A DNA stretch of 64,000 nucleotides from Cenococcum geophilum 1.58 (lineage: Eukaryota > Ascomycota > Dothideomycetes > Gloniales > Gloniaceae). The stretch is from contig KV748268.1 in the NCBI GenBank assembly GCA_001692895.1, positions 356,161-420,160 on the forward strand. The letters are read 5' to 3'. The translations under genes were made by a program, and so were the position numbers. Below the pieces are notes generated by a model, which worked only from the letters and a program-made list of their open reading frames with translations, made no database searches and was not told the DNA's origin. This document shows, one piece after another, positions 19,914 to 63,451 of the stretch (its first letter is position 1; each line of letters begins with the position of its first letter).

Positions 19914-19967
19914 TTTTGGTATACTAATATTAAAAAAGAAGTAATTTCGGCATATTAATATGCCAAA
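19914..19967. repeat. Two 24-bp palindromes
   Basis: An eroded member at 19914-19933 and a near-perfect one at 19945-19967 (TTTCGGCATATT + AATATGCCAAA), just after the helicase frame and before a C/T tract and the 12-bp satellite. Confidence 0.85.
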
Positions 19968-20060
19968 CCCCCCCCCTTTTTTTTATTTACTAATGCTACC
20001 TTAATTCCCTAATAATATAGCAAAATATAATTATTGCAAAAATGGATAATAATTAATCTA

Positions 20061-20170
20061 AATAAGTATTAAGATAAGTATTAAGATAAGTATTAAAATA
20101 AGTATTAAGATAAGTGTTAAGATAAGTGTTAAGATAAGTAATAAGATAAGTGTTAAGATAAGTATTAAAA
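20061..20170 (+). repeat. 12-bp satellite (AAGATAAGTATT)n, copy 1
   Basis: About nine tandem 12-bp units with small variants (GTGTT, AAAATAAG). It is preceded by AAAATGGATAATAATTAATCTAA, which resembles the leader of the two other copies. It is not a TTAGGG-type telomere repeat. Confidence 0.9.
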
Positions 20171-20549
20171 TAGATGGTTAAGAGGAGTCGTAATTAAGAA
20201 GCTTAATATTTAATAGAGAAAGAAGCTTATATATTATTAAACGGATAATTAAGTATAAGAACACTATCTTATTATAAGAGGCTCTAGAGCCTTATTATAT
20301 ATATTAAATAGGTAGCGAAAAGGCTAATAAAGACATCGCTTAGTTAGTAATAAGTAATAAAAATAGGTAATAAGATATTTAATAAGATATATAATTAAGA
20401 AAGAGGGTAATTAGTTATAAGTTAAGAGACAACTAAGATAAAGTACGTAAATACAATTTGGGTCAACAGATAGTAGTATAATAGTAATAAAAAAATCCAA
20501 TTTAGGTTAATATATATATATATACATCATTCCTAAAGGTAAGCTGCTA
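20171..20549. other. AT-rich spacer with a short (TA)n
   Basis: No gene. Contains loose GATAAG-like units and a (TA)n run at about 20510-20524. Confidence 0.6.
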
Positions 20550-21890
20550 TCCTATTAGACTCCGCCCATTTCTTAATCCTTATCCGCTACGCCTTCCGTA
20601 TATTTATTAAATTTATCTATAGTAAGCGAATTTAGAAGTGCACTACGGCTAGTAATATTATCTCCACATTTATAAAGGCGAGGAAGGAGCCAGTGCTAAG
20701 CAAAGAGGATAAGGTAATTAACAGTATCAACGGCTAAGTCTATCCGTCTACGGTCAACCAGCAGGATACTACCCTTGACATTTTTCCACCATTCTAGGCG
20801 GCGGCCCTAGTCCTAGCTGTTAGGATCTAGGTATAAATAGAGTGCATTATAAACAGGGTTATTAAAGCAATTAGGTAAAGCGAAGTTAGACTTCTAAAGG
20901 GGATTAGGGGAATAGGTACCCGTATATAGTCCTAGGGCGGCAGATCCTAAGTACTTAATAATAAAAGAGGGATTATTAGCTTTAGAGAAGAGAGGATAGT
21001 AGTATAGAATATTAACGGGCTCAAATAACGGCCGGTTATATAGGTAACGGTCCCTATAGGCGTTAACGCAAACGCCTTTAAGCTTAGCGGTTTTAATAAA
21101 CAAGATAACATTACAGGTAAAGTAGGTGTTAGCACTAATGCCATTAATAGCGCTACCGATACCGTTATAAAACCAGGATATATAGTTAATAATATCGCGG
21201 TAATCAACTAAGGAAATATATTAGTAGTAGGGAGGGTTAGGGCTAGGGCTAACCTTAGCCATAGCTAGAAAGGGTCCATACTAAAAACGCCAGCAGCTAC
21301 CGCCAATAATAGCAATACTTTAATTAGGTGGGAGGGTTTAAAAGACATCGCGGCCGGTTAACTTAATAATATAGTCATTAAGGACGGAGGTGCGAAGAGC
21401 GTTACCATAGATTATATTAAGGCTTATACCGACAACATTAGTCTTAGTAGGGGAAATATTAAGGTAGCCTTATAGGATAAGTTTATTATAGCCATCCATA
21501 TCCGGGCAGAAAGGGATAATTTCAACTTATATAAGGCGAGGTTTAGAGCCGAGAAGTATAGGGAAAAGTATAGCCTATTAGTGATTTTCGGATAGAGGTT
21601 CTTAAAATTTTATAAAGGGTTTATAAAGGTGTTTATAAATAGACCAGTTAGACTACTAGTATTCTATAAAGCAGTAAGCGGTAGAATAGCAGCGGGAGCA
21701 TTATTTAGCATTAGTAGCGTTACAGGTAGTACAGGAGTTAGTAAAGTTTAGTATTTTTAAAGATAAAAGAAGCAAGGAGATATTAAGGTGGAAGGTAAAA
21801 TTAGAAGCAAAAGTAGGGGTAGTTAATATTTAAAGGAGGAAAGAAAAGAAAGGCTAGTGGTTATATAATATTAGGGAGGCTAGTAACGCC
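20550..21890. pseudogene. Unidentified eroded coding block, strand undecided
   Basis: Two frames read as protein-like once RIP stops are allowed. The minus frame (about 21540 to 20550) includes NVVGISLNIIYGNALRTS, FYNGIGSAINGISANTYFT and a 69-codon open stretch at 20894-21103. The plus frame (about 20700-21830) includes VTVPIGVNANAFKLSGFN and IVIKDGGAKSVTIDYIKAY. The minus frame has fewer stops and more aromatic residues, but I cannot choose between them. No family recognised. It lies between the helicase's satellite and a cluster of LTR fragments. Confidence 0.4.
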
Positions 21891-21927
21891 AGCCTTATTA
21901 TAGCACTAGAAGATTAATTCTTAATAA

Positions 21928-21979
21928 TTTTAGCATGTTAATATGCCAAAATCAGGATTTTAATATACTAAAATTAATA
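21928..21979. repeat. 24-bp palindrome and an eroded partner
   Basis: TTTTAGCATGTT + AATATGCCAAAA (21928-21951), then TTTTAATATACTAAAATTAA at about 21958-21977, directly abutting an LTR family 1 fragment. Confidence 0.75.
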
Positions 21980-22037
21980 CGGCTTAAATAAATAGCTCTA
22001 AATTAAAGCTTAAACGAATGCTATATTACAGAGATAC
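21975..22037 (-). repeat. LTR family 1 fragment
   Basis: It matches the terminal 60 bp of the 28526-type LTR (ACGGCTTAAATAAAT..GCTATATTACAGAGATACTA), cut by the LTR family 2 copy that begins at 22038. Confidence 0.7.
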
Positions 22038-22265
22038 TATTACAGCGCTAGTAGAAAATAGTAGATTATAGTAGACATTATATAGTAGAGGCAGAGTTAT
22101 ATAAGCTTATATAACTTAAGGACCGTATATAACTTCAAGCGGCACTACTATTCTTCTCCTTTCCTTTCTTTAGCTTTAGATCCTTATTTATAAATAATCT
22201 AATTATACAGGCTTATATATCTGTCTTACCATACCTATATCTCTTAATTAACTAAGTCACTAATA
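22038..22265 (+). repeat. LTR (family 2), plus orientation
   Basis: Inverse of the 15136 and 24171 copies: TATTACAGCGCTAG start, CTCCTTTCCTTTC pyrimidine tract, CTTAATTAACTAAGTCACTAATA end. It faces the 15136 copy, so the helicase region lies between inverted LTRs. Confidence 0.75.
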
Positions 22266-22415
22266 TCCCTTCCACTAGTATATTTCGTCCTACTATTATT
22301 AATAAGAACTGGCTAATAGAATTAATAGGATCAAGGCTACGTAACTATACGCGTACTTTTAATTCCAGTATTTATATATAGTCCGCCTCTTATAGGACAC
22401 TACTAGCGGAAGGGA
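22266..22415. mobile_element. 150-bp MITE-like element with TA flanks
   Basis: TCCCTTCCACTAGTA at the left end and TACTAGCGGAAGGGA at the right form inverted ends. TA sits outside on both sides (22264-22265, 22416-22417). It shares the TCCCTT terminal hexamer and TA target with the MITE at 9653-9907. No ORF. Its CA/TG content is better preserved than in the flanks. Confidence 0.65.
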
Positions 22416-22497
22416 TACTCTCTATAACTATAAAGGCTTAATTAAAAGAATAGAATCTATTAGTAGCTAGTAAACTAGAATTCTATAACAAAGTCTA

Positions 22498-22589
22498 AAA
22501 GGAGGTTAAGGAAAAAACACGTCTATATATATAGGCTAAGGCTCTAAGCGAGCCCCTAACTAGGGTCTATAATAGTGCTGTAATAATAA
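22498..22589 (-). repeat. LTR family 2 end fragment
   Basis: Shares AGGTTAAGGAAA, GTCTATATATATAGG and CCCCTAA..AGGGTCTATAATAGYGCTGTAATA with the end of the solo LTR at 49348-49535. Confidence 0.6.
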
Positions 22590-22608
22590 CCAATTACCTA
22601 TAATATTG

Positions 22609-22945
22609 TTTTAGTATATTAATATGCCAAAATAGATATATTTTAGCATATTAATATACTATATATACCCGCAATCCATTCCTACAACCTATTCCCATAA
22701 CCTATTCCCGCAACCCGTTCCTATAACCCATTCCCACAACCTATTCCCATAAAACCTATTACCAGTAACTAACCCGTTCCTATATAACCCATTTTACAGT
22801 TAATAGAGAAGTAAATAGGGTTAAAGTATAAAGGAAGAATGCAGTATATTAATAAATAAAGTAAGATTTAAAAGATTATTAAAAAGAGAAAGGTAGGTAG
22901 AAAGAGAATATTAAGGGGATATTTCAGCATATTAATATGCTAAAA
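22609..22945. repeat. Three 24-bp palindromes
   Basis: Members at 22609-22632 (TTTTAGTATATT + AATATGCCAAAA), 22641-22664 and 22922-22945 (TTTCAGCATATT + AATATGCTAAAA), separated by the 13-bp array and an AT-rich spacer. Confidence 0.85.
22675..22752 (+). repeat. 13-bp tandem array, 6 units
   Basis: Units of CCYATTCCYRYAA; variants CCTATTCCCATAA, CCTATTCCCGCAA and CCCGTTCCTATAA. C-rich on this strand and not seen elsewhere in the window. Confidence 0.85.
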
Positions 22946-22972
22946 TGAGGCGATTTTATTAATACGTTAACA

Positions 22973-23490
22973 TGGCAGTAATAAGGGTAGTAGTAGTAAA
23001 AGTAGGAGAGGTAATAAAGGTAATAGGAGTAAAAGTAAAAATAAAAGTAGTAAAAAAGGTAATAAAAGTAATAAAAGCAATAGAGGTAGTAAAGGTAGTA
23101 GGAATAATAGAAGTAATAAAGTTAGTAGGAGTAGAAGTAATAATAGTAATAAAATTAATAATAATATAAGTAGTAGTTGTAGTAATAGAAGTAGTAGTAA
23201 AAATAAAAGTAGTAGTAGGGGTAGTAGATTAAAGTAGTAGTAGAAGTAAAAATAATAAAAGTAATTAAAAAAGAGTAGTAATAAGGTAAATAATAGTAAT
23301 TTATAATATAATAGATAAAGGAGAGGATAATAAATAAAAGATTATAGAGGTAGTTATAAGTTATAATAATAGTAATAGTAGTAGTAGTAGTAGTAGTAGG
23401 TTTAGTAGTAGTAAAGGTAAAAGTAATAAGGGTAAGAGTAGTAATAAGGGTAGAAGTAGTAATAAGGGTAGGAGTAAAATTAATAAGTAG
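22973..23490 (+). repeat. Degenerate TAG/TAA/AAG trinucleotide repeat
   Basis: Purine-rich trinucleotide DNA with short pure (AGT)n runs (near 23375-23400) and GTAATAAGGGTAG-like units. The 65-codon frame inside (Val/Ile/Lys only) is a product of the repeat. Same type as 43990-47450. Confidence 0.85.
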
Positions 23491-23639
23491 TATAGTAAAA
23501 CCTCATTATACCGTTCAGCTCGGTAGTAAGGGGGTTAAACATTATACCATATAGAAACGTTATATTACGAGCTTACTTATTAATCGCTATAAGGGGCTAA
23601 ATCAACTCTTTTCTCTATCCATAACTACTTAAAGAAGCT
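23491..23639. other. No gene seen
   Basis: Short RIP-type spacer between the trinucleotide repeat and the transposase-like remnant. Confidence 0.5.
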
Positions 23640-24160
23640 CATAATAGTTGTCTGCCTTACCTACGCAGCTTAACAGCCTTAAATTACTCTCTCTGCCTTT
23701 ATAAGAGCTATAATTAGAGTCTTATTACCATCCTCTTACTGCCCCTTATAGAGCTTAAGGCGCTCCAGTACATCTAAAGCCTTATTAAGCTTAATAACTT
23801 ATAGCTTAACCTCTTTATCGCTTTCTTTATCATCTAGCGCGTCATATAAAGCGACAATTAAGGCCTTAATTGCTTCCTGTAATATAGAGGCCTCAGGCTC
23901 TATTAAAGCGTCCTCCCTATTTATATTAATAAAGTTACTAATAGGAATTAATTGCCTAATTTGCCCTACTTAGCTAAGCTACTATAAATACACTTCTAAT
24001 TCGGCCTTAAGCTAAGGCTTACTATACCCGCTTAGCATACCCTAGGGGCCCTTATAGGGTCCAAAGATTGTTAAATACGTAAAGCAATTTATTACGGTTT
24101 AAGGGCTAATTTTATACCATACTGCGATAGCCTACTAGATAGCCCTAAGTACGTTTATTA
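23640..24160 (-). pseudogene. Possible pogo/CENP-B-type transposase C-terminal remnant
   Basis: The minus strand reads, with Gln stops, QAIAVWYKISPQTVINCF followed by an acidic/leucine-rich tail (ALIVALYDALDDKESDKE, LNKALDVLERLKLY). 'AW..ISPxTIxNCF' just after the DDE core and a coiled C-terminus are features I associate with pogo/Fot1-type transposases. The DDE core itself is missing, so the call is tentative. It ends at the LTR starting at 24171. Confidence 0.4.
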
Positions 24161-24170
24161 TCTTAAGGGG

Positions 24171-24370
24171 TGTTAGCGACTTAGTTAATCGAGATATAAG
24201 CATAGCAAAAGGGTCGCGCAAGCCTATATAATTGGATTATCTATAAACGAGAATCTAAAGCTAGAGAAAAGGAAAGGAAAGAATAGGTAGCAACGCAAGG
24301 AGTTATATACAATCCCTAGTCACGTAAGAGTTATATAAGCCCTACGTCTACTATAACGTCTACTATAGCT
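24171..24370 (-). repeat. 3' LTR (family 2) of gypsy element B, first part
   Basis: Starts TGTTAGCGACTTAG. It is cut at 24370 by the non-LTR element and resumes at 36061-36085, which ends GCTATAATA (eroded GCTATAACA). Joined, it is about 225 bp with TG..CA ends, next to the polypurine tract of the minus-strand gypsy pol at 36086-36100. It therefore defines LTR family 2. Confidence 0.85.
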
Positions 24371-24469
24371 GCGGGACTTAAACCTTATTTTTAAATAACA
24401 CCCCCTAGTACGCAGTACCCAAGTTAAAAAAGGGAAGATAGAAACAGTAGAGGTAGAAGAAAGCTTAAC

Positions 24470-25845
24470 GCGTTAATTACGTTAGGAACGCGCTAAGATA
24501 ACTAAGGCCCTTAAAAACGATAGTTATGAGAGCAATACAAAAGATACGGTTTATATAGTAGCAGTAGCCCCTAGTACACTACGACCAAAACGCATAGGGA
24601 AAAAACTACGCCCTAAGGATTAAATAGGGTTAATAAGAAACCGTATAATAGCTAAAAAGAGAATAGAGTAGCTGGTAATAACAGCCACTATAGTAAACTA
24701 ATTAACAACTAAGAGGACAAATATAACATTAAATATATAGATTAAGGTGCTAACTAACCTAGTTACGTCACTACTAGGGGTGTTAGAGTAGCAGAAAGAG
24801 GCATAAGCGAACTAAATTAAAGTCATTACCGAAATGTTTATAGAGTAGATTAACGCGCTTAGAGCTAAGGTTATAGAGAAAATGGAGGTAATCCAAACCT
24901 AATTATTAAACATTTAAGCACTACTAAGCGCGGCTCTATTATACGCGGATATTGCCTATACGCCGCTAAGCAGTTAACTAAGCAACCTAACGTCCTTCCC
25001 GTTAAGGAATACTATACTATTAACTATTACTAATATGCTGTATTGCACAGTTAACATATCTAAAGTTAAAGAGGAAAATAAAAACAAAATATAACTGGGG
25101 GTAATTAGATAAGTAATTAAAAGTAGTATATATATAACGGAAGGCTATAAGAGCTAGCGCTGTACAGCAGTAATTAAAGACCCTAGGAACCCCGTATATA
25201 TTAGGATAACTTATAGGAATAATACCGAGCTCTAATATATAAAAGAAGCGGCCTAGAAGACCTTAGTACCTAATATTCGGGTACTATAAGACCAGCTCTA
25301 CCTAGTAAAAATTAACAATGCTAATTAAACAGTAGTTCTTAACTAAAAAGGAAAGATTTAAAACAAAGTAGTAGAGGTGCTAGGAAAAGAAAATAATGTA
25401 TATATAGCCCAGATAGGGTGGCTTAGTAGAAAAGACACAAGAAAGGTATATGGTTTAATAGTAGTATACATTACTAAAAGCAATAAGGCAGCACGGTTGC
25501 TATAAAACTAATACTTTTATATTATAGGGGAATTAGCCTACGTTAAAACCTATAAACTTAAAAGCGGCCCAACGTAATACTACTAGTGTTAGACACTAGG
25601 ACACAAAGCTTTTATATATATAAGACCGCAAGTATATACTAGATGCGCTTAAGAAGGACATTATTATAATAACTGCTAAGGATAGATCCTAAAATATATA
25701 CTATACGGAGGACTATATAAATCGTTTAGTAAAAATTGCCGAGTGCTTTATCCTACCCGCTATGCATAAAACACTTTAGGTACTTTAACTAAATATCTAA
25801 AAACAGAGTATAGTATAGTAGAGCCTAATAAACGATAAACAACTA
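24470..25845 (+). pseudogene. LINE ORF1 (Gag-like, zinc knuckles)
   Basis: After an N-terminal basic and coiled region (about 24600-24920), a cluster of degraded CCHC knuckles occupies about 25575-25760: YYQCQTLGHKAF, YTRCAQEGHYYNNC and a third KNC-containing unit, with several Cys codons turned to Tyr. This is the RNA-binding ORF1 of Tad/I-clade elements, needed for the ribonucleoprotein that reverse-transcribes at the target. Stops lie at Gln/Trp positions. Confidence 0.75.
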
Positions 25846-28520: not shown

Positions 28521-28525
28521 AGTAC

Positions 28526-28735
28526 TGTAACGGCGCTATCGCATATTACCTACCAAATTCTACTATATTCTGCCGACCTATAATTAGCCCGCCTAAAGCT
28601 AGCGCCTTAGCAGCTCACTCTATATATTTATTTACATCAGTCCTAGCAACCCTTTTTCCTTCTCTTTAGCTTAGTATCTTTGTAATACAGCATTCTATAA
28701 GCTTTAGTTCAGAGATATTTATACAAGCCGTAACA
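28526..28735 (+). repeat. 5' LTR of gypsy A (family 1)
   Basis: TGTAACGG..CCGTAACA ends. It is less eroded than its 3' partner: it keeps CA at several sites where the 3' LTR has TA. Confidence 0.92.
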
Positions 28736-28889
28736 TTATACTAAGCTCTCCCTATCTTACCTAGAAAGGCCTCAATAATATCCTACCCTAAAGAAACTTC
28801 GTCTACAACGACGCATTAACGCGCTATACTTAGACACTAAAACAACTCTATATTACCTAGGAAGGCCTAAATAATATCCTACCTTATAA

Positions 28890-30160: not shown

Positions 30161-30169
30161 TAAAGAAAT

Positions 30170-43300: not shown

Positions 43301-43990
43301 AAAAAGAGAAGGTAGGGAAACGGGAAGAAAGGGTATATATTATTAGCTTAGTTGCTTAGTTAATATATATATAGAGCAGAATAGGATTTAGGTAGTAGTC
43401 CTAGTAGAACTTAGTAGAATTTAGTAGAACTTAGTGGAATATAGCAGAATATAGTAGATTGCCGTTAGATTACTATAAATTGCCATTTTATAGTTAGTCT
43501 CTAGTTACTAAGTTGGTAAAAATAGGTAGACGTATATAAGGTATTATAGGGGTATTCTATAATAAGTATACCCACTAAACCTATTATAGACGTTACTGTT
43601 ACGGACGCTTTAAGTACAATATTACAACTACTTAAAAAAGAGATAGAAGAAGCTAGTTAATTAATATAGGCACAGTCTAGAATAGAGCTAATAAAACTAT
43701 ATAACAAGGAATGGTAACCGAGGTTATATAATGTAATCTGTATAATCTATATAATCTATATAATCTATAATAGAGTAGATAGAGCACACGTATATTATAT
43801 ATAAGAAGGATTTTATAGGAGTACGGTTGCGTATTTAAGGACCCTTAGTCCCTACCTAAATAGTTCCTTCTTTATAGTAATTCTTAGAATATAATTAAAG
43901 TTAATCTATTAGGCAACCACTCCACCAGTTATTATTACGTTGTTAACTTTTATACTTATATTTCCTATACACCTAGCCTATTAACGAGCC
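43301..43990 (+). other. Retroelement debris: short Gag start and possible LTR
   Basis: 43380-43450 holds a run of AGTAGAAYTTAG/AGAATATAGCAG units. 43562-43738 reads a Gag-like start in one frame (TDALSTILQLLKKEIEEAS, then IELIKLYNKEW). 43735-43960 has TAATCTATA tandem units, a TATA-like stretch and a CCACTCCACCAG end that could be an LTR. Assignment weak. Confidence 0.4.
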
Positions 43991-44371
43991 TATTATAGTT
44001 CTTGCTACAAGGTTCCGTTATAGTAATAGTAGAAGTAATAGATTAAATAGTAGTAGGGGTAGTAGTAAAGGTAGTAAATTAAATAGTAATAAAAGTAAGA
44101 GTAATAGTAGAGGTAGTAAAGGTAGTAATAAAATTAGTAGTAATAGTAATAATATAAATAGTAAATAAAAAAGAATAAAAGTAGAAGTAATAGTAGGAGT
44201 AATAGTAAAAGTAGTAATAGAAGTAATAAAGGTAATAGGGGTAATAAAAATAGTAAAAGTAATAGAAGTAGTAGAAGTAGTAGTAAAAAAAAGGAATAAA
44301 GGTAATAAAAGTAGTAGTAAAGGTAATAGGAGTAATAGAAGTAATAAAGTTAGTAGAAGTGGTAGTAAAAA

Positions 44372-44437
<66 letters not shown>

Positions 44438-45219
44438 AAGTAGAAGTAGAAGTAGAAGTAGTTATAGTAATAAAAGTAATAAAGGTAAAAGAAAAATAGT
44501 AAAAATAATAGATTAAGTAATAATTAAGTAATAAATTAAGTAGTAATTTTAGTTAAAAGAGTATTTTTTAGTTAAAAGAGTGTTTTATAATTAAAAGAGT
44601 AGTTTTTAGATTAAAAGGGTAGTTTTTAGATTTAAAAAGTAGTTTTTAAAAGTAAAAGAGTAGATTTAAAAGTAAAAGAGTAGATTTAAAAGTAAAAAAA
44701 GAGATTTTTGATAGTAGGAAAGTAAAAGAGATAATTAAAATAATTAAAGGAGTAATTAAGTTTAAGGAGTTTTTAGGTTATTTTTAGTGCGGTGTTTCGC
44801 AGGAGATTTACAATAGGTAGGAGGATAATGGATTAGGTAGGTATTAGAGAGTTAAGGATAGGTATTATTAATATAAAGGAGTAGTATTAGCGGGGGTTTT
44901 AGGGATAATTTTTAGGTATAAGGAGCAAATTTAGAAGAGATAGTAATAGCAGTTAAAAGGGATCGGAGTTAATTTAGAGTTAAATTTAAGTTTAGTTTTA
45001 TATTTAGTTAGGAAGAGATAATTAAAAGCAGTAAAGAGCAATAGTTTAGTAGGGGAATTTTATTAGATTTTACGGTTAATAGAGGAGTAAATAGGGTTAG
45101 AGTATATACGGAAAAATAGAGTATATTAATAAATTGTGATTAATTTAAAAGATTATTAAAAAGATAGTTATAGGTAAAAAGAGAATAGTAAAAAGATAAT
45201 TTAGTATATTAAAAGGTGA

Positions 45220-45327
45220 TTTCAGCATGTTAATATAGCAAAATTAGGATTTAAAGGATTATTAAAAAGATATAGATATATAAATAAATTTTAAAAAAGA
45301 ATAATTTCGGTATGTTAACATGCTAAA
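45220..45327. repeat. Two 24-bp palindromes inside the trinucleotide tract
   Basis: 45220-45243 (TTTCAGCATGTT + AATATAGCAAAA) and 45305-45327 (TTTCGGTATGTT + AACATGCTAAA), embedded in a non-trinucleotide insert at about 44760-45340. Confidence 0.8.
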
Positions 45328-46904
45328 ATAAGGTGATTTTAGGATATTATTATAGTAGTAGAAGTAGTAATAGGGGTAGTAGTAGAAGTAGTAATAGAGG
45401 TAGTAATAGAAGTAGTAATAAAGGTAGTAGTAGAGGTAGTAGTAGAAATAGGGGCAAAATAGGAGTGGTAGTAATAATAATAGTAGTAGTAGAGGTAGGA
45501 AAGGTAAAAGTAGTAGTAATAAAAGTAGTAGTAATAGTAGAGGTAGTAGAAATAATAAAGGTAATAAAAGTAATAGATTAAGTAATAATAAGAGTAAAGG
45601 TAATAGAAGTTGTAATAGTAATAAAAAGAAAGGTAGTAGAAGTAGTAGTAGTAATAAAAAGAAAAAAGTAGTAGGATTAGTAAATTAAGTAATAGAAGAT
45701 TATTAGGTAGATATAGTAGTAGAAAGAGATTAAATAATAATAAAAGTAGAGATAATAAAAATAGTAAAAAAAAGGGATAGTAGTAATAAAGGTAAAAGAA
45801 GTAATTATTAAAAAAAAGTAGTAGTAAAGGTAATAGAAGTAATAGTATAAGTAAAGGCAGTAAAAATAATAGTAAAAGTAGAGGTAGTAAAAGTAGAGGT
45901 AGTAAAAGTAGAGGTAGTAAAAGTAGAGGTAGTAAAAGTAAAGGTAGTAAAAGTAGAGGTAGTAAAAGTAAAGGTAGATTAAGTAGAAGTAGTAGTAGTA
46001 AAAGTAGTAATATAATAAAGTAGAGAGGATTAGGAATAATAATAGGGGTAAAAATTAAGTAGTAGTTTTAGTTAGGGGCAAAGAGTATATAGTAGTAGTA
46101 TTTTTATTAAGTATTATTAATAGTGGTATTTTAAAGTATAGATAGAGGAGAGGGCAATAGTAAAGATAGATTTAGTAGATTAAGTAATAATAAGAGTAAG
46201 AGTAGTAATAAAGGTAATTTTAATAGAAATAAAATAGGAATAAATATAAAAGTAATAGTAAATATTAATAGGAGTAGTTTTAATAATAAAGATAGTATAG
46301 AGAATAGAAGTAGTAATAGTTTTAAAAGTAGTTTAAATAAATATAGATTAAGTAATTATAGAAATAGTAAAAAAAGTAGTAATTTTAATAAAATTTAAAA
46401 TAGATTAATAAGTAGTAGATTAGATAGGTAGTAATAAAAGTAAATTATTATTAAGTAATAGAAGTAGATTATTAAGTAGTAAAGGTAGTTTTAATAATAG
46501 ATAAGTAATAATTTTAATTTTAATTTAAAGAATAAATAAAGATTAAGTATTAAGTTAAGTAGTAATTTAAATAATAATAATTATAGATTAAGTAGTAGAT
46601 TATTAAGTAGTAATTTTAGTAATAAATTAAATAGTAGGAGTAGTAGAAGTAGTAGGAGTAGATTAAGTAATAAAAGTAGTAGGAGTAGTAAAGTAATTTT
46701 AGTAATAATTTTAGTAAAAGTAGATTAAGTAATAAAAATAGTAGAAGTAGGTAATAGGAATAATAATAATAAAAATAGTAGTAGTAAAGGTAGTAGAAGT
46801 AGTAATTTAAATATTAGTAATATTTTAGGTAATAAGAGTAATAGTAAATATATTAGATTTTATATTAGTAAATTTTATATTAGATTTTATATTAGTAAAT
46901 TATA

Positions 46905-46976
46905 TATTAGATTAAATATTAGATTAAATATTAGATTAAATATTAGATTAAATATTAGATTAAATATTAGATTAAA
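46905..46976 (+). repeat. 12-bp tandem array TATTAGATTAAA
   Basis: Six near-perfect units, with looser related units back to 46850. Different sequence from the AAGATAAGTATT satellite. Confidence 0.85.
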
Positions 46977-47569
46977 ATAATAGTAATAATAAAGGTAATA
47001 AAAGTAGTATTATTAGTAATAGAAATAATAAGAGATTAAGTAGTAGTAGTTAGAAATAGTAATAGAGGCAATAGTTATTAGTTTTAGTAATAATAACAAA
47101 TTAAGTAGTAAAGATAATAGAGATAGTAGAAGTAATAGTAAAAGGAGTTATAAATTTAGTAGTTATTATAATAGGAGAAATTTTAGTAGTAAAAAAGGTA
47201 AAAGGGGATTTTAGTAAAAAGGAGTAAATTAGTAAAAAGGAGTAAAATAGAGTAGTAATAATAATAGAAGAGGTAGTAGAAAAAGTAAAGAGGTAGTTTT
47301 AAAGGTAAAAAGGTAGTAAAGGGGTAGTAGGGGGGTAAAAAAGGGAGTAAAAAAGGTAGTAAAGTAAAGGAGTAGTAGGGAAGGTAAAGGGGTAGTAGAG
47401 AAAGTAGTAAAGAAAGTAAAAAAGTAGTAAAAGTAGAGGTAGAAAGGTAATACTTAAGCGGGAAACTATATAGCTAAGGTAGGATTATATTGCCCCTAGG
47501 GGTAAAACCTATATTTTGGTTATTATAAATAAAGACTTACCCTTAGGTGTAAAAGCTTTTTATTACTAT

Positions 47570-52075: not shown

Positions 52076-52085
52076 ACTATAAGCT

Positions 52086-52250: not shown

Positions 52251-52260
52251 ACTATAAGCT

Positions 52261-52727: not shown

Positions 52728-53250
52728 TTCTTTTAGTATATTAATATGCTGGAATAAGGGTTTTTTTTAATATTATAATATAGTAAAATTGGGTTCTTTT
52801 AGTATCTTAATATACTAAAATTAACTTCTTTTAGTATCCCAATATGCTAAAATTAAACTTTTTTTAGTATCCTAATATGCTAAAATTAACTTCTTTTAAC
52901 ATCCTAACATGCCGAAATAAACTTCTTTTAGCATCTTAATATGCTAAAATTAACTTCTTTATTACGGCTAGCAATCCTATAAAAGTAATTTAATAGATTA
53001 AGTAATAATATAGGGCTATATTATAAGTAAACTAAGGTAAAAAGCTATAAAGGTAGCGGGTGTAGACTATATATAGAGAAAGGGGGCGTTAAGGCCCTAG
53101 CGCTTTAGCGCTATATAACTATATAATGGTATAGGTCACTAATTATCTAAACCGTCACATTCTTTAGTATCCTAATATGCCGAAATTAACTTCTTTTTAT
53201 ACATTAATATAGTAAAATCAACTTCCCCTAGTATATTAATGCGATAGTAC
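52728..53250. repeat. Palindrome array, ~32-bp units
   Basis: At least eight units of the form CTTCTTTTAGYATCYTAATAT + GCTAAAATTAA, each carrying the 24-bp palindrome (eroded to different degrees), continuing on both sides of the solo LTR at 52960-53159. Confidence 0.9.
52960..53159 (-). repeat. Solo LTR (family 3) inside the palindrome array
   Basis: TATTACGGCTAGC start, AACCGTCACA end, 200 bp. TTCTT is duplicated at 52955-52959 and 53160-53164. The inserted LTR keeps a CACA terminus, so it is less eroded than the copy at 49725. Confidence 0.92.
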
Positions 53251-53370: not shown

Positions 53371-53955
53371 TAACGGTCTTATACCTAAGGGCAAATATTT
53401 TATACCTAAAGGCAACTCTTATACCTAGGGGTAATAGTCTTATACTCTTATACTTAGGGGCAATAGTTTTATACCTAGGGGTAAACGTCCTATACTTTTA
53501 TACCTAGGGGTAGCGGTCTTATACCTAGGGGCAACGGTCTTATACTTAGGGGTAACGGTCTTATACCTAGGGGCAACGGTTTTATACCTAAGGGTAACGG
53601 TCTTATATTTAGGGGTAATAGTCTTATACCTAGGGGCAACGGTCTTATACCTAGGGGTAACGGTTTTATATTTAGGGGCAATGGTCTTATACCTAGGGGC
53701 AACGGTCTTATATCTAAGGGCAATAGTTTTATACTTAGGGGTAACGGTCTTATACTTAGGGGTAACGGTTTTATACCTAGGGGTAATAGTCTTATACTTA
53801 GGGGTAATAGTCTTATACTTAGGGGCAACGGTCTTATACCTAGGGATAACAGTTTTATACCTAGTAGTAACAGTCTTATACTTAGGAGTAATAGTCTTAT
53901 ATTTAAGGGTAACTATCTTATATTTAGGGGCAACTATTTTATACCTAGGGGTAAG
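53371..53955 (+). repeat. 21-bp minisatellite, ~28 units
   Basis: Unit GTCTTATACCTAGGGGYAACG with RIP-type variants (TTATATTTAGG, AATAG). Because 21 is divisible by 3 and the units lack stops in one frame per strand, long open frames occur on both strands (53490-53828 minus, 53681-53968 plus). They are repeats, not genes. Confidence 0.93.
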
Positions 53956-53956
53956 T

Positions 53957-54665
53957 AAGTCGCGCTAGTGGCTTTGCTAAAAGTAGTACTAACTTAAAAA
54001 GTCTAAGCAACCTCCCTACTATACCTCCTATTTAATAAATAAAACCTTTTACTTTTTACTTTATAACTAACTTATTTATAATTATAAAGCCGGATATTAT
54101 TAATATAAAGCGCTGTAATTAATCCTCCCCTAATATAACGGAAAAGAAGTAGTAGCTCTAAGGCCTTAGGTTAAAAGCTTCCTATTTAAAGGAGATAGAT
54201 TTAATATATAACTAGGCTAAGCTATATTAGCTAGTAACAGTAAAGTTCCTAATTAATTCTCTTACGCTAGTATAAACCGTTAGCGTAAATTGGCTTATTA
54301 ATAACGCCTATAAGCGGAGGCTTTATAAAATATTTAAGGAATAGGGTGTCCTTTAAAAAGACTTAGGGTATTAATTATAAGTAGCCTATACTAAAGCCTA
54401 AGTATAGAAGATACTGGACTATATTAACGGCGGACGGGTATATAATGCTAATAATAATAGGCTAAAAGATAAATTAGAATATCTATTGTTTAAAGGCTAG
54501 GATATAGTAATTAGAGAGAAGGTAAAGCTTATAGTAGGCAATTATAGAGTAAAGGTATTAAAAGAATATTTATAATATCTAAAATCCCTAAAGAATAAGC
54601 GATGGTGGATTTATAATATATATAATAAAGGTATTATTTTACTGCGCCCCTAAACCTAGCTAACT
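53957..54665 (+). pseudogene. Unidentified eroded frame, copy 2
   Basis: Homologue of 47786-48500 (motifs IFKEQGVLQKDLGYQL, ILDYINGG). Unlike copy 1 it may continue into the next block. Not recognised. Confidence 0.5.
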
Positions 54666-56760
54666 GAAATTAGCTAACTCTAATATAGATATATTACCAC
54701 CCTATCTAAATATTAAGCTCCGCGCTAATTAAGAAGATTTAGTTTTACCTAATAACTATAGCCAGATATGGGCAGAGCTGGCTACTTTATTATTTATAGA
54801 TAGTACTCTTTTCCAAGAATTAAATACGGTAGTAGAATGGCAAATACTAGATCTTCTAGGACTTAGCGGTCGGATTAAATTCCTAGTTAAACGGCTAGGT
54901 ATTCTTTAAAGAAATAAAAATTAAAGGCTAATAATTATAAAATAGTATAAGTTCTTAGTGGGCTAAGCAATATTTAACATTTTAATATTTAAATAAATAG
55001 CTAGCTATAGGATTAATAATGTAAGTAAATTATATAATAGAGCTCCCTAGAAAAATGCTAATAATATTTATAGTTCTAGTTTAATACTTTTAACTAAGTA
55101 ATTAACTTAGTATTTTAAATCCGCGGTTAAGTTAAGATTAACGTCTAATTAAATAACTGGATTAAGTTAGCGAGCCTTTTACATAACTATACCCCTAAGG
55201 ATATTTAAAAGTTATTTTACCCTAAGTTTAAGGATAATATAAATGCTAATTTACTAAAGCTTTGCCGGCAAGATCTCTTTATAGCGGTAAATAACAAATT
55301 ATATAATAACCTGTATAAATTTATACTTTTAAAACTAAAGCTAAGCTTTGCTAATATTTACTCTCTTTTTAAGATTATAAAATAGAAAGGAAAGGTAATA
55401 AATATGGTAATATCTTATATTAGCTAGTAGCTAAATCGTAACCCTATAAAGGTTGCTAAGCGTAATAGCAATAAACCTCCGCTATAAAACGATTTTCTAT
55501 TAGCTTTATAGGAGAAGTATAATAAAGAAGCGGATAAGTAGTTATTAGAACTTCAAAACCGGGTTCTAGAATATATAAGGGATAATATTAGCGAGTTTAC
55601 CTACCTAGCGATGAAGCATTACCTATAAAAATACCTATATAGTAACGGTATAGCTTATACTAAATAATTTGAGTATAAGACCTGGAAAGGTGTATTAATT
55701 ATTATTCTTAATATTACTAGTCCATATCTCTAGCATAACGTACTACTATAATACAATATTAAGGACCTAAGAGAGATGTGCTCTAAACCGGTATTTATAA
55801 TTACTTAAGCCGTATATAAAATTATTAGCTATATACTAGAAATACTGCAAAATTCTGCTCTTAATAAAAATAACGCTATAGACGACCTATATAAAACAAT
55901 TAAACTATTAATTATAAAATAGGTGGTAAGGTAATACGCTAAAGTATTAGAGAGCCCTACTAAATATTAGTAGCTGTTAGTAATTAAGATAATAGAGGTA
56001 TAATACGCAAAATATATAACACTAGGGGAAGAAGACGTGCCTTTACTAGCCTTAAACCCGCTAAAATACAATCTATTAATATCTAAGAAAAAACTATAAG
56101 GAGGTAATACATATAGTATTAGATCTAGTGGGTATAAGTTAGAAGTAAAGCGGCCTAATATAAAAGGGCTTAAGGACGGGCCTATAGCTGGCTATATTAG
56201 TGCACTAGCTTCTACATATCGTTAATAGGTAAAAAATCCGTTACAGCTAATACTAAAGGGCTTATAAGAACTCTGAAACTTATACTATAATTAAACCTAA
56301 TTAAAACTGCCAAATAATAGGCTAGAGACTTAAAGGGTAGGTAGGAAAGAAGGAAGCGAAAGTAGTAATATATTGGGCGGTATCTAGCTAATATAACTAT
56401 AATCGTTAACTACGGCTAAGGGTTTTTAGGCTTAGAGGAAACGTATAATATAAAGTTTAAACATATAATTATTAGATTTGCGCATTTAAATTTAGCTTTA
56501 TTATAAAATAATACTAAATACCAGAATAGTATTAATTGGCATACTAAAATAATATACTTTCCCCCTAATATTTAGTAGGTACCTTACCCCTAGGGGATCC
56601 CCCTCTTATTATATTTATTAGTAGTAGATACCTAAAGGTTTAGCAGATACTAATAAATTTATTTTATCTATCTTAAATATAAGTACTAAATTCTTTAATA
56701 AAGTATATCGCTTACCTAGTAGTAGGTTATAGCCCTTATATACTAAGTTTTTATAAATAC
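54666..56760 (+). pseudogene. Unidentified eroded coding block
   Basis: Several stretches read well with Gln stops: ELATLLFIDSTLFQELNTVV (about 54775-54830), then LDLLGLSGRIKFLVKRLGIL to 54908. Further on come VKRPNIKGLKDGPIAGYISA (about 56140-56205), ALEETYNIKFKHIIIRFAHL (about 56430-56490) and INWHTKIIYFPPNIQQVPYP (56530-56590). The product appears long and globular. No known domain found. Whether it is one gene with the next block cannot be told. Confidence 0.45.
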
Positions 56761-56775
56761 TAATATAGTATAGAA

Positions 56776-59700
56776 ATGGACAATACCTCACTTAATAGGG
56801 AGTTAAGTATTAGCGAGGCTAATAATAGCGAGGTTAATAATAACGACTTTAATAGGGACTTAGATAACAATAACGGCTTATATTATAAAGAAATATCTAT
56901 ATACTATAAACAGGACCTTAAAAATAGAAGCTTTAGAAATAAGGAGTAGGTAAATATAGTATCCAATTTATATTCCTAGAAAATTAATTACTTAAAGGGC
57001 GAGTATAAGCTTAAAGGTATACTATATTCTGCTAGTTTTACTATATTCTAATATATAAGGATAAAGCTAAAGAATTATAGTATAGGATCTAACTAAGAAG
57101 ATAGACTCTCCCTATTTCGACGGACGTTAAGCAATTAAAATACTATAGTAGCTCTATATAATTAACTATAGAAGTAAAAAAGTAGGGTTAAAGGCAGTAG
57201 CAGTGGATAACGAGTACTACTATGCCTTTTACCTTAACCTATTAATTATTATTGGCCGACCACTTAGGCCGATTACGCAGTTAAACGGCCGGTTTTTTAA
57301 TAACATTACTATAACTTTTAAGAACTAGCGGGCCTTATATAGTAGTAAGTATATATATAGTCTACTATTTAACTTAGAGCACCGCACCTTTTAACTAGCT
57401 ATAGTAGTAATAAGGGAGGTATAGTACGTTATAATATATCTAATTACGCCTATAATAACCAATTTACCTTAATTAAGGCGGGAGCGTTAAAAGCGCCTTA
57501 ATAAGTTATCTTAGTCTAGTGCATTATAGCTTTACTATATATATTTTCTCGCGGAATATATTAAGCGAGTCTTCCTTATCAGCGACCTTTTTAGAGAGGG
57601 TATTAAGCCTTTATAAACGCTTAATGGCTTACAGTTATAGAAGATTACGTTTAATAAGTAAACTATTTTTTAAAATAGGTTTATAGAGGAATGGGAAAGT
57701 TACGTATAAAAATGCTTATATAACGATTTTTAGATAGAAAACTAGCCGGCATTTTACGCTTATAACTATAGCGCGAATATAAAAATTAAAGTTAATAAAT
57801 AGGTCTAAACCCTATATAAAGAAACCCGTTTTTACTAAAATAATAAAGAGTTTAAGTCGGAGTTGGAGGATAGTAAGGATAGTACTTAAGTAGAGGTGTC
57901 TAGCTAGAGTAATATAGGAGAAGTATTAGAAGCGGCTAAAGAGGTTAAATACTAAAGCCTATATACTAAGGGCCTTTATTAGCTTTAAACTAAATTAAAA
58001 TAGAAGTATATACTTAATAATATTAGCAGCATATTATATGCTTTAGCGGTTAACACTTACTACCTAGATATAAAGTCCCCTAACGTAAATAATAAGCTTA
58101 TATATTATCTCTTAGCTAACTAGAATAAAGTCTTAAAAGAGTATCGCGGCCCTTAGGACTTTATATTCTATCCGCTAGCCTTCCACCTAATATACAGTAA
58201 CTTCTTATTATCTTAGCCACCTTTATTTTTTATAGATAACCTTTTCACAGTTATAAAAGATAATATAAGCTACTAAAACGATGGCGCTGATATGCTTAGC
58301 TATGGGTATTTCTAGGTATACTTTAATATTAAGCGTAGTATCCGTTACGGACTAGATAAGCTTCTTACTACTAAGGGCATAGTAATAGTAGCGCTCGCTC
58401 TCCCTAAAACTAAGGCTAATACCTCCTCTATACATATAAGGGTAAAACGTTAATAGCTTTTACGGATGCTATAAGGCCCTAATTTATTTAAGCCGTTTAC
58501 ACGTAAGCGGTAGTATATTAAAGCGGCAATTATAAAAGAAGAATTTTCCTTTTAAATAGAATAGGTACTAACTATTTAAGTATCTAAGCTAACAGATAGC
58601 CGCTAAAGTTTTTTAATAGTACTTAATCTAATCTTTTAGCTAATGCGTTTCTACCTTAAGGAGTGTTATTACTATATATATATACTCTAGTCCTTCTAAC
58701 CCTTAGTCTTCTCTAGTATACTTTACTCTTTTACTAAAATATTTAGGCTTACAATTAATAAAGTGTATAGTAGGTTTAAGGCTAGGGGTTTAAAAGGGCT
58801 AAGCATTGCTTTAGTAAAAGGCGTGTCCGCACTTAACTGCTTAGGGAGTTACTACTTTATAGGGTTCCTTAAATCCCTAATAGGCTTAGTCCTTAGCCCC
58901 CTAGAAATAATAGATGGTATATAGTAAGGAGCGTAGCCATATATTAACCCTTAAATATTAAACCTTAGAGATATTAGAGGCAGCCTTTACTTTAGCTAGT
59001 AGCCACAGGGTAAAAATAATTGACCATTACTTATGCATATGGCTTTTATTAGCTTTTACTATAGTCTAAAGGTTATAGTAAGTCGTTATAGTAACGTCTA
59101 GTTTAAAGAGCTTAGTAGTATATTAATTAGAGGACTAAATAGAGCAGCTAAATTCTTAGAAGACTTATTCCATAATTTATAAATACCGTAAACGGTTAGG
59201 TTTATTAATCACTAATTTAATTATACGCTTAGGTAGGGTAGTTAGGGTACAGATAAGATAAAAAAAAAGGTATAGCTATTAAAGGATTAACAGGTATTAA
59301 TACGGCGATAGTTATAATATAACTATCTATTTTCCTAGGCGTATATTAATAATATACATTAAGTCCTATAGCTAATATTTAGGGTAGAGAGTATAAACTG
59401 GTTATATTATACTTTGCACTAAAAAAGGTCCTATTCTTAACCTATACGTTAACTAAGGTTTAGTAAGACTTTTTTTAGGAGCTCTATAATAGCTACGGCA
59501 AAGATAATAAGTTAGCAATTAGATCATTTTCGTTATTATATACTACGTAGGTCTTAGTTCTTTATATAGCCATTTAATATATAGCTAAAGGGTTAGTAGA
59601 TAAGGAATAGTAGATTAGTGTATTATTAGTTATAATATTTTTAAACCGGATCGAATGCGTTCCTAAAACATATTAATTAAGGCTTAGCTATTAAAGGGTT

Positions 59701-60500
59701 ATTAAGCTAGTAGGCTATATACTACTAGCGTTAGCGCTTATAGTAAGACCTAGCAGCGTTAAACAGGTAGCTATTAAGGCTAAAAATAAGATAAAGCAAC
59801 TAATAAAGAGGAGAAGGATTAACTTTAGGTACGCTATTCCGTTTACTAATATTCCTAAATTAATTAAGGATAGTTTTAAGTAGCAAGAAAAGAATAAGTA
59901 GGATTAAATAGTATTAGAGTACTATTAAGTAGCTTAGGTCTACCTAGCAGGATATCTTAATAACCTACTTTATAATATAATGCTAATGCTAGCATTAATA
60001 CTTATGTTATTATTGGTAATACCTATAGTAACACTAAAGATATAGTATTTTAGCGTAGGGGCTAAAAAAGACCTGGGATTATTTGCAGCGAATTTAGTAA
60101 CTAGAATACTATAGTTTCTCCAGCCTAAGGCATTTCTATAGAAAATAGATACTAGGTTAGTGCTTTAAATTCTAGAGATAATAAAGAAACTAGGTATATA
60201 TTAAGATAAGGTATAAATAGAAGGTACTAATAAATATAAAAGTATAAAGGAGTAAATAACCGGTTATTATAAGATATAGGATGGATTAAAGTAGTAAATA
60301 GAAAGTAAGACAGCCCTTAAAATAGTAATATCGTTCTTTATAGTAGGGATAAATTACTATAAACTTATAAAGAGCTTCTCTCTCTATATAAGGATACAGT
60401 AGGATATATTTATAAGGTATTCCGTAGTTACAATAGTATTTAGGTAGATTAATATTCGCAAATTATTATAGATAAAATATAGGTATAAAGGTGGTAGGGT
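56776..60500 (+). pseudogene. Large unidentified eroded frame
   Basis: An ATG at 56776 opens an acidic Asn-rich start (MDNTSLNRELSISEANN) of about 57 codons without a stop. Further on, with frame changes, segments read FNKQTIFQNRFIEEWESYV (about 57645-57705), GADMLSYGYFQVYFNIKRS (about 58275-58335), GLDKLLTTKGIVIVALALP (about 58340-58405), GLNRAAKFLEDLFHNL (about 59130-59180) and RQLQYNYLFSQAYINN (about 59300-59350). Potentially over 1000 codons, possibly more than one protein. No helicase, RT, integrase or DDE motif seen. It is followed by palindromes and the 12-bp satellite, as the helicase is. Confidence 0.45.
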
Positions 60501-60541
60501 ATATTATTATAAAAAACTTAGCAGTTTCCTTAACAAGTTGG

Positions 60542-60564
60542 TTTTGGCATATTAACATACTAAA
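60542..60564. repeat. 24-bp palindrome, single
   Basis: TTTTGGCATATT + AACATACTAAA directly after the large unidentified frame. Confidence 0.85.
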
Positions 60565-60609
60565 CCTTTTTTCTACTAATACTATATTAATTCTCTAAAA
60601 AGAGTAAGA

Positions 60610-60740
60610 ATATAACGGCTAAACTACTAGCTAAAAGGATAGTGTATAAAGAAGATTAAGATTAACTTTATAGTTTATAGTTTAATATATATATACCTAA
60701 ATAAGCGCCTACTAGGTTATATAACGTCACAACTATTATA
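60610..60740 (-). pseudogene. Paralogue of the block at 52020-52320, without the LINE (empty site)
   Basis: The minus strand matches the sequence flanking the truncated LINE on both sides, joined through a single ACTATAAACT where the filled site has ACTATAAGCT twice. It is a short fragment, duplicated and inverted. Confidence 0.8.
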
Positions 60741-60804
60741 AAGAGTAGAAGTAAAGTAGTAGTGGCGTAAAGGGCTAGTAACTAGCCTCCTTAATATTAT
60801 ATTA

Positions 60805-60984
60805 TTTTAGCAGATTAATATAGTAAAGAAAGTTAATTTCAGTATATTATATGCTAAAATAGGATAATTTTAATATACTTATATAGTAGGATGAGTTAAT
60901 ATCAGTATATTAATATAGGAGAGGTTAATTTTAGTATATTAACACAGGAAAAGAAGTTAATTTTGGCATATTAACATACTAAAA
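60805..60984. repeat. Palindrome array, ~37-bp units
   Basis: Five variably eroded 24-bp palindromes separated by a GAAGTTAATTT-like spacer; the last (60961-60984) is nearly perfect. Confidence 0.85.
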
Positions 60985-61015
60985 TTAAATTTGCGGAAAT
61001 AGAAAATAGTTAGTT

Positions 61016-61090
61016 TAAGATAAGTGTTAAAATAAGTATTAAGATAAGTATTAAGATAAGTATTAAGATAAGTATTGAGATAAATATTAG
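61016..61090 (+). repeat. 12-bp satellite (AAGATAAGTATT)n, copy 2
   Basis: Six units, led by AAATAGAAAATAGTTAGTTT, which is also the leader of copy 3. Confidence 0.9.
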
Positions 61091-61439
61091 GCGTTAAGAT
61101 TAGTATTTTTATCCATATTTAATATTAATTAGAAATTATTCAATATTAAATATTAACGTTTAATATTTAATATTAATACGAAAAGTGTTAATATTTAGTA
61201 TATTAAATATTTTATAATAAATATAGCAGTATTATTCTATTTTACTAATACCTTAAATATTCCTTTTTAGAATAAATTACGTTCCTTTTAAGCGAGAGTG
61301 CCGCCTATTAGCCTGTGCTACTCCCACCTCCTTTTTCTATATTAGAACGCGACGCGTTTCTACTTTTCCATTACTATACATACCATTCTTTTTAATCGTA
61401 TATTATATCAATAATATTTATCTTTGCCTTATACCAACT
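61091..61439. other. AT-rich spacer
   Basis: (TAATATT)-type low-complexity DNA to about 61240, then a less AT-rich stretch with better CA/TG content (61280-61400). No gene identified. Confidence 0.5.
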
Positions 61440-63078
61440 ATTTTTTAAGGTTATTTAATTATTACTAACTTCTCTTTTAAAGAAGGCTTGCTAGCAACAG
61501 CTCTCTAACGCTTTAGCTACTATGCCTTAATAGCGTATTTACGTATTAGAATTGGCTTTAAAGTATAATGCTATTATAGATATAAGCAGCGTTAACTTAG
61601 TAGAAAATGGTCTATAGGCAATATATAAGGAGGCCTAGATATATAAGAACGTACTAAAAATGCCTTAGGTTAAATATCTACCCCTTTTTAGTTATCCTGG
61701 CGACTTTAAAAAAACAGATATAATAGAGGAGTAACGCGCAATCTTAGTATACGTAAAGAGTGAGGAATCTAGGATAAACTATATTTTTAAGTCCCGGCGC
61801 TAGCTAATAGAAATTAATAAGCAATTTACACGCTAGCGAAACGTTAGCTGCTAGCTATACTTTGCTACTATAAAACGGCCGGAGCCTAATTATATAGTTT
61901 ATAACTACACTTCTTAGAACAGCTATAAGAGAGTATAGGCGATCCTTAACTGGCTAGAAAAACTTACTCTTTTTAGGTTTTCTAATAAGTTAGGAGTATA
62001 TAGCCTATGCTCCTAAATAAACTGTCTATATAGGGATATTAGGATAGCGTATTAGGTATATATAGCGGAGTTTAAAGAGGTTAAGGATTACTAAAAAGAG
62101 ATATTAGAGTTTTAAGGGTAACTAGATGGCCATTACAAGAATAAGGCAGTAGTAAGGAATATAATTACAGCTCTCTATGCATATAATAACTAAGTACTTA
62201 GGAAAATAGTTATAAAAAAAATATCTAATAAGAATGGAGTAGATATTACGGTAGAAAACTAAGTGCTCTTCTAGTTTAAATAATAAATATTATTCTATAA
62301 CAGCTCTATTCTAAAACTCCTTTTTGTATTTAAGATACTAATATATATATTTAACTTTTGGTAAAAAAGGTAGTTAGAGATATAGGCGAACTAGCAAAAT
62401 AACAATAAGGCTATTAGTGGCGTGTTAGTTAAAACGTAATAAAAGTAATCTAAATAGGGGTGGGATAATAAGTAGGAGCTATAGGACTAGATAGAATTGC
62501 TAGATTAATAGGTTAATAAGCATAGCTTCTACGTAGGTTAAGGGCTAGATAGTCCTTATATTAATTACACGTTAAAAGTATATAAAAGGGGTAAGGTGGC
62601 GCAATATAAGGTTTAACTTAGTAAGGCGATTTACCTTAAAGGGTATAGGGCTTAGGGTGGCTGCGGGGATTATAGTACCCCTTAGGAGTTTTACTAAAGG
62701 TAGAAGAAGAGGGAGAATAGAATATGAAAGTTAAATAGGTTAAAAAGGTGCTAATATAGGCGGCTAGTATATAATATAGTAATTGGGCTCTTTTAGTGTA
62801 GTAATAGCAGGTATAAGGTAGATGTTTATATAGTAATAAAGGAAAAGGGGGATAAGAAATATATAAGTCTAGATAATAAAGATATAGTAGTATAGCTATA
62901 TAGGGGTATAACGGTAGTAGGGGTTAAATATTTAGAGATTATTTAATAATTTTCGCTATAGATAAAGATGGTATAGAAAGCTAAACTATACTAGGGCTAT
63001 AAAGTAACAATTTAATATAGAGGCGAGTGTTTAATATATATTATGGAAAACTTAGAGCAGTTTCGTTAATAAGTTACG
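61440..63078 (+). pseudogene. Unidentified eroded frame, ~540 codons
   Basis: Long stretches stay in one readable frame with stops at Gln/Trp positions: QRIYVLELALKYNAIIDISS (about 61530-61590), YLPLFSYPGDFKKTDIIEE (61674-61730), INKQFTRQRNV (61812-61845), LDGHYKNKAVVRNIITALYA (62120-62180), QVNKHSFYVGQGLDSPYINY (62510-62570), CGDYSTPQEFYQRQKKREN (62660-62715). Probably one ancestral ORF. Soluble, basic, no motif recognised. It ends beside palindromes and the third 12-bp satellite. Confidence 0.55.
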
Positions 63079-63084
63079 GCTTAG

Positions 63085-63220
63085 TTTCGGCATATTAATA
63101 TATTAAATAATTTTTTCAATTTTTTTTTCAGTAATTCCCCTCCTAAGCTTTAGGCTAAGAATAGAAATTTTTTAGTAATTTTTATATAAAAAGCTATTTC
63201 GGCATATTAATATGCTAAAA
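63085..63220. repeat. Two 24-bp palindromes
   Basis: 63085-63108 and the near-perfect 63197-63220 (TTTCGGCATATT + AATATGCTAAAA). Confidence 0.88.
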
Positions 63221-63251
63221 TCAAATTTATAAAAATGGAAAATAGTTAGTT

Positions 63252-63451
63252 TAAGATAAGTATTAAAATAAGTGTTAAGGTAAGTGTTAAAATAAGTATT
63301 AAGATAAGTATTAAGATAAGTATTAAAATAAGTGTTAAGATAATTATTTAGATGTGTTAAGATAAGTATTAAGATAAGTATTAAGATAAGTATTGAGATA
63401 AATACCGAGATAAGTGTCGAGATAAATATTAAGATAAATATTAGGTATTAA
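63252..63451 (+). repeat. 12-bp satellite (AAGATAAGTATT)n, copy 3
   Basis: About 16 units with one irregular break near 63345; variants GTGTT, ACCGAG and GTGTCG. Leader AAATGGAAAATAGTTAGTTT as in copy 2. Confidence 0.92.

Follow-up and report, generated by a model that had tools for sequence, protein, structure and literature searches.

The cassette in the window

We analyzed a stretch of 64,000 nucleotides from the ascomycete Cenococcum geophilum 1.58 (GCA_001692895.1, contig KV748268.1, here C93), termed the window, which carries three copies of a composite repeat, termed the cassette. The window comprises the last 64 kb of the contig (356161-420160 of 420160 bases; the assembly has 177 Mb in 162 contigs), and its right edge is the contig end. 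The index of repeat-induced point mutation (RIP), (CpA+TpG)/(ApC+GpT), was about 0.0-0.8 per 600 bp across nearly the whole window. An island without RIP signature (index 1.0-1.6) lies at 10800-14400 inside the RIP-mutated surroundings. Two stretches (43800-47400 and 63600-64000) are of low complexity, with a nearly C-free + strand and a GC skew of up to 0.93, and the second closes with an 18-bp array at the contig end.

Each cassette has a 24-bp palindrome as its left border, followed by a leader (about 32 bp in type 1), an array of a 12-bp unit and, sometimes, a tail. The palindrome is of the type TTTYGGCATATTAATATGCCRAAA and precedes leader and array at all three window sites, and the unit was ancestrally near GAGAYGAGTGTC at position d, one of seven recurrent positions (a to g) that are defined below. 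The window cassettes occupy positions g at 20.1 kb, b at 61.0 kb and a at 63.2 kb (Table 1). Loci are named by contig and kilobase (e.g. C71:53.8), and the window arrays are also called W20.1, W61.0 and W63.2.

A preliminary description of this DNA had placed the array starts at 20061, 61016 and 63252 and had regarded the leaders as related. The arrays are real, but they start at 20059, 61017 and 63253, and only the leaders at 61.0 and 63.2 kb share one type, whereas that at 20.1 kb belongs to a second, more diverged type. The distance from palindrome start to array is 56 bp at b and a. For the intact palindrome of g, this distance is 114 bp, and the interval includes a T-tract and a second, truncated palindrome. 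The palindrome noticed after the large frame upstream of b is present at 60542, but the cassette has a palindrome of its own about 420 bp further on, at 60961. Tandem palindromes were observed at 14468-14902 (60-bp period) and at 52762-52960 (32-bp period).

A RIP-tolerant scan of the window, with up to 2 other mismatches allowed, yielded 17 palindromes, compared to 0, 0 and 0 in three shuffled windows. With a looser cut-off, 40 palindromes were found in 129 kb of the window and C71 stretches, compared to 1, 0 and 0 after shuffling. When the 17 palindromes were placed at random, each array had one 24-120 bp upstream in 1 of 200,000 trials. These controls indicate that neither the number of palindromes nor their pairing with arrays is due to chance.

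Table 1. Features of the window (TRF, Tandem Repeats Finder)
Feature	Coordinates	Strand	Remark
Gene-3'-end and palindrome element without satellite	15347..15445	-	
Eroded RecQ-type helicase frame upstream of g	15603..19802	+	RecQ match ~18039-19007
Palindrome, position g	19945..19968	+	RIP-tolerant palindrome scan
T-tract, truncated second palindrome and type-2 leader, position g	19969..20058	+	
12-bp array, 9 units, position g	20059..20166	+	also TRF
3'-end element (shared gene end, palindrome 60542, T-tract) after the large frame	60504..60604	+	
Palindrome, position b	60961..60984	+	RIP-tolerant palindrome scan
Type-1 leader, position b	60985..61016	+	
12-bp array, 7 units, position b	61017..61107	+	also TRF
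Eroded ~540-codon frame between b and a	61300..63070	+	6 full-length copies in genome; no family match
3'-end element with palindrome at 63085	63038..63149	+	
Palindrome, position a	63197..63220	+	homology with satellite-free relatives stops at 63219
Type-1 leader, position a	63221..63252	+	
12-bp array, 15 units, position a	63253..63442	+	also TRF
Tail common to positions a and d	63443..63475	+	read by eye

Distribution in the genome and contig ends

A two-unit satellite pattern with at most one mismatch had 442 matches genome-wide, and its reversed control had none. Among the matches listed (100, zero-mismatch, up to C76:672665), only contigs C41, C44, C52, C71, C72, C75 and C76 were represented. 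The fetched loci contained 32 arrays, a lower bound for the genome. A palindrome started at most 130 bp upstream of all 32, and a leader was present in 31 (absent at C75:143.9) as well as in 8 of 8 further arrays. As the preliminary description had proposed, palindrome, leader and satellite thus form one unit that recurs many times. The association is one-sided, however: none of these 32 satellites was without a palindrome, whereas palindromes occurred mostly without a satellite. One RIP-tolerant palindrome pattern, which misses palindromes whose centre differs, those at d and e among them, had 37 exact matches in the 177 Mb (reversed control 0), and 6 of them adjoin a listed array. All 37 lie on 12 contigs, none of them among C1-C51, and 11 of these contigs carry placed arrays, C103 being the exception.

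The flanks of the 32 arrays were clustered by homology within blocks. This resulted in the positions a (4 arrays), b (4), c (7), d (5), e (3), f (3) and g (3) and three single-copy arrays (C44, C160 and C75:143.9). With upstream flanks alone, d merged with e, and C44 and C160 merged with g; with downstream flanks, a merged with c via low-complexity sequence. The spacing is stereotyped, with 13-14 kb between f and d, 31.5-34 kb between d and e, and 46-49 kb between e and g. At C72:685-871 kb, the f-d-e array pattern recurs after about 140 kb, which suggests tandem copies of a very large unit.

A subtelomeric location had also been suggested. On the nine contigs longer than 200 kb that carry placed arrays, 41 of 43 arrays lie at most 250 kb from a contig end, and 38 of the 43 point toward the nearer end. 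Of the 8 full-length copies of position c, 5 (C142, C155, C148, C152 and C151) are cut off by the contig end, either no more than about 0.6 kb past the array or within the cassette itself, and the contig ends likewise in 2 of 4 copies of position a (the window and C114). Such an arrangement would fit a sequence that is associated with telomeres and serves a structural purpose at chromosome ends. However, a fourfold TTAGGG repeat was not found anywhere in the assembly, nor was a threefold repeat with at most one mismatch found on contigs with placed cassettes. In addition, the remaining copies of c and a lie inside their contigs, the repeat in C72 puts some copies as far as about 200 kb from its end, and contig ends may be mere assembly breaks in repeats. 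We give a structural role at chromosome ends little credence. The proximity to contig ends and the mostly outward orientation stand, but "subtelomeric" is unproven because no telomere repeat was found there; the assembly may lack the chromosome ends, or their telomere repeat may be a different one.

Divergence of the copies and palindromes as probable joints

To quantify divergence within positions, 1350-bp upstream regions of the seven positions were aligned for 28 of the 32 loci (C71:53.8, C44, C160 and C75:143.9 were left out). Among 9427 columns, 1510 contained transitions and 2 contained transversions, with 42 gap columns. The variable sites by context were 693 of 779 for CpA, 408 of 683 for CpG, 249 of 1322 for CpT and 158 of 966 for CpC. 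Copies at one position differ almost only by RIP, and the near absence of ordinary mutation implies that the blocks multiplied shortly before RIP. Given such a recent amplification, the system could show how subtelomere-like blocks multiply and exchange parts until genome defence fixes their state.

The comparison between positions was based on the type-1 palindrome, leader and first unit in five contexts (a, b, c, d and C160). Of the 65 columns, 38 were invariant, 26 varied by transitions only, and one contained a transversion. In pairwise terms, 8970 sites between positions included 1394 transitions and 60 transversions. In the 60 bp upstream, 3870 of 8280 pair-sites were transversions. The pattern used for picking type-1 sequences itself permits mainly transitions; 19 of the 20 sequences passed it, and the twentieth misses by one transition. 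With one transversion column in 65 although the adjoining genes differ, the cassette must have been spread or homogenized recently.

The left border of the cassette often coincides with losses of homology. Three satellite-free relatives of position a (L017, L018 and L030) all follow the window as far as 63219 and part from it there, inside the palindrome 63197-63220, which is why the palindrome is read as a recombination joint. Similarly, when type-1 positions are compared, homology reaches left only to the palindrome or its edge in 6 of 10 pairs. AT-rich palindromic repeats are recombination hot spots. The cassette resembles them in having AT-rich palindromes where homology is lost, but at about 24-40 bp its palindromes are far shorter than the human examples.

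We consider it somewhat more likely than not that the cassette is no gene family but a non-coding repeat that spread through recently amplified blocks by recombination at palindromes. It belongs to large blocks near contig ends, with RecQ helicases resembling the telomere-linked helicases (TLH), that were amplified recently and then mutated by RIP. Ectopic recombination at dispersed palindromes, by gene conversion or break-induced copying, would have distributed the cassette while the last rounds of RIP were still to come. The cassette would travel with the genes as a passenger without being a working part of them, and the contig ends would lie near chromosome ends. The comparisons support the spread and the palindrome joints, while we infer how the spread took place, that the cassette has no function and that it is located at chromosome ends.

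Several observations weigh against this interpretation. The copies within a position are block duplicates, so that there are only about nine independent contexts. Four of the 10 type-1 pairs (b with c, and C160 with a, b and c) are homologous for 9-57 bp further left, and because b and C160 share about 57 bp more in this direction, the five type-1 contexts are not all fully independent. When b is compared with satellite-free copies, the change occurs 21 bp right of the preceding palindrome (60542-60565) and not at its own palindrome. The three satellite-free relatives of a may go back to a single event. A flank comparison of 134 palindromes gave no clean count of one-sided joints; tandem palindromes were fused into one 40-member cluster, and only directly aligned cases were used. 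Lastly, a transposase could have made the palindrome joints.

An alternative is a non-autonomous transposable element whose fixed end is the cassette; the palindrome would be its terminus, and the array and tail side would be truncated to a variable extent. This would explain one sharp border (the palindrome) opposite a variable one, copies that are nearly identical in different contexts save for RIP-type changes, and the restriction of the tail to a and d. However, neither a target duplication nor a terminal repeat was seen at a or d (by eye, no program run), no reverse transcriptase or transposase family was detected in the neighboring frames tested, where RIP damage lowers sensitivity, and palindromes occur alone and in tandem, too. 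We regard a transposon end as unlikely, and recombination at palindromes remains the preferred reading.

Neighboring genes and the GATA motif

Next to g lies an eroded RecQ-type helicase frame. Translated with stops as X, it matched TIGR01389 (E 1.6e-12, 46.7 bits; curated full-length cut-off 640.2) and RecQ proteins in PDB (E 5.8e-10). The helicase at c matched TIGR00614 (E 2.5e-13, 49.7 bits; cut-off 219.8). The two are old paralogues, with 28-33% amino-acid identity. Both are multi-copy, with 13 full-length copies for g and 8 for the c query. An array follows the g helicase in all 13 (nine by listed positions, four by further checks), and the cassette follows the c helicase in 8 of 8, the contig stopping inside the cassette in C151. 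At L071 (C75:168900-171730), a 2.2-kb insert splits a position-g cassette. It has short inverted ends (CATCGG.AAAATAT) and a TA duplication and, by eye, looks like a Tc1/mariner-type element.

The other positions adjoin different sequences. At f, the array is followed by a RecQ fragment with a length of about 140-230 bp in 10 of 10 places. The neighboring frame at d is oriented away from the cassette, and so is that at e, judged by 305 bp of homology to d. The frames before a, b, f and C44 have a common gene 3' end, followed by palindrome and T-tract; this shared element also occurs without satellite, and the g helicase shares with these frame ends only the part from the palindrome onward. The 540-codon frame matched no family in Pfam (three frames) or NCBIfam, and two of its six full-length copies (C122 and C52) have no satellite on either side. 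The large frame (53998-60540) matched no Pfam family in three frames. The idea of three members of one gene system was thus not borne out, as one RecQ helicase and two frames without family match lie upstream, nor does the upstream content form one gene family, with RecQ at g and c, an oppositely oriented frame at d and other frames at a, b and f. Overall, the preliminary description is partly supported: RecQ (TLH-like) genes are tied to the cassette at two positions.

The blocks resemble the TLH regions of fungi in that RecQ-type helicase genes occur in multiple copies near sequence ends and adjoin short tandem repeats, a likeness that is based on the RecQ domain and the copy number. They differ from those regions in three ways: a search for telomere repeats found none, a 24-bp palindrome and a leader are attached to the repeat, and the same cassette also adjoins other frames. 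According to PMC12857005, FoTeR repeats are co-located with TLH genes, with RIP-damaged copies and upstream tandem repeats; the literature consulted also includes PMC8381367. The MoTeR/FoTeR telomeric retrotransposons share these features with the blocks studied here (PMC12857005), but the cassette lacks a reverse transcriptase and has no telomere repeats at its borders; among the frames tested beside the cassettes, none matched a reverse transcriptase, apart from the match in L064 given below. TLH genes with associated repeats are known, and the cassette is a variant of that pattern. A literature search that joined RIP, palindrome, subtelomere and satellite returned a review only, which is not proof of absence in print.

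Between e and d, a Sir2-like match was found in L042 (~3286-3543; C71 ~48.3-48.5 kb). For SIR2, E was 3.7e-5 with 24.2 bits against a cut-off of 24 (stops as X) and 9.8e-8 with stops as Q/W, and the best PDB Sir2 match had E 3.4e-5. In six frames each, L041 and L042 contained no other Pfam family at E 0.01.

AGATAAG, a motif of the array, matches the binding site of GATA factors. This raises the question of whether the cassette is a regulatory element, namely a hairpin terminator with an array of GATA-factor sites, that serves the helicase and neighbor genes. Its location directly 3' of the RecQ frames in every full-length copy at g and c, the agreement of AGATAAG with the GATA-factor motif, and the frame at d that runs away from it would be in line with this. 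However, the cassette lies 3' of some genes and 5' of others and is missing from two of the six copies of the 540-codon gene. In the window, almost all units contain GATAAG; those with TA at positions 5-6 numbered 9 of 9 in W20.1, 6 of 7 in W61.0 and 15 of 15 in W63.2, and 291 of 328 when all copies are counted. By contrast, C71:53.8, the long array with the least RIP damage, reads GATG in 10 of 16 units and GATA in 6, so that an ancestral GATA core in every unit was not found. Because its GATG columns read GATA in more damaged copies, RIP has made many of the GATA cores, and this weakens the GATA-enhancer reading. GATA is present in 5 of 5 units of C71:22.2 and in 4 of 7 of C71:67.7, and some units may be GATA by origin, but an ancestral function of the core is doubtful on these comparisons.

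Selection for a hairpin was also rejected. In 100 distinct sequences of the 134 palindromes, the RIP-variable pairs G5-C20 and C7-G18 were paired in 56 and 49 cases, compared to 51.1 and 45.3 expected from the column make-up, and hence the arms show no co-variation beyond chance. Taken as a whole, a regulatory element is quite improbable. A literature search on RIP with GATA and binding site found nothing, which likewise does not prove absence in print. RIP itself can partly produce an array resembling transcription-factor motifs, and motif readings of RIP-affected DNA call for caution. A long shot is that a self-contained, end-associated block with RecQ helicases, the Sir2-like gene and cassettes amplifies as one unit of up to about 140 kb and reassorts at palindromes, with RIP-made GATA arrays rewiring transcription. 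If this were true, RIP, a silencer of repeats, could rewire host transcription near chromosome ends.

Some further searches concerned individual neighbors. For the frame at d, only a sub-threshold zinc-finger match was obtained; a JmjC-like motif in this gene was seen by eye only and is not claimed, as Pfam and PDB searches gave nothing. ARAGORN found no tRNA in the tRNA-like sequence after the T-tract of satellite-free elements in the six sources given, and Rfam had no match in the window. L064 contained a reverse transcriptase match (RVT_1); the d cassette of C71 lies about 4 kb away from it. Finally, a tandem array of a 21-bp unit (TTATACCTAGGGGTAACGGTC) with about 22 copies occupies 53498-53954 of the window.

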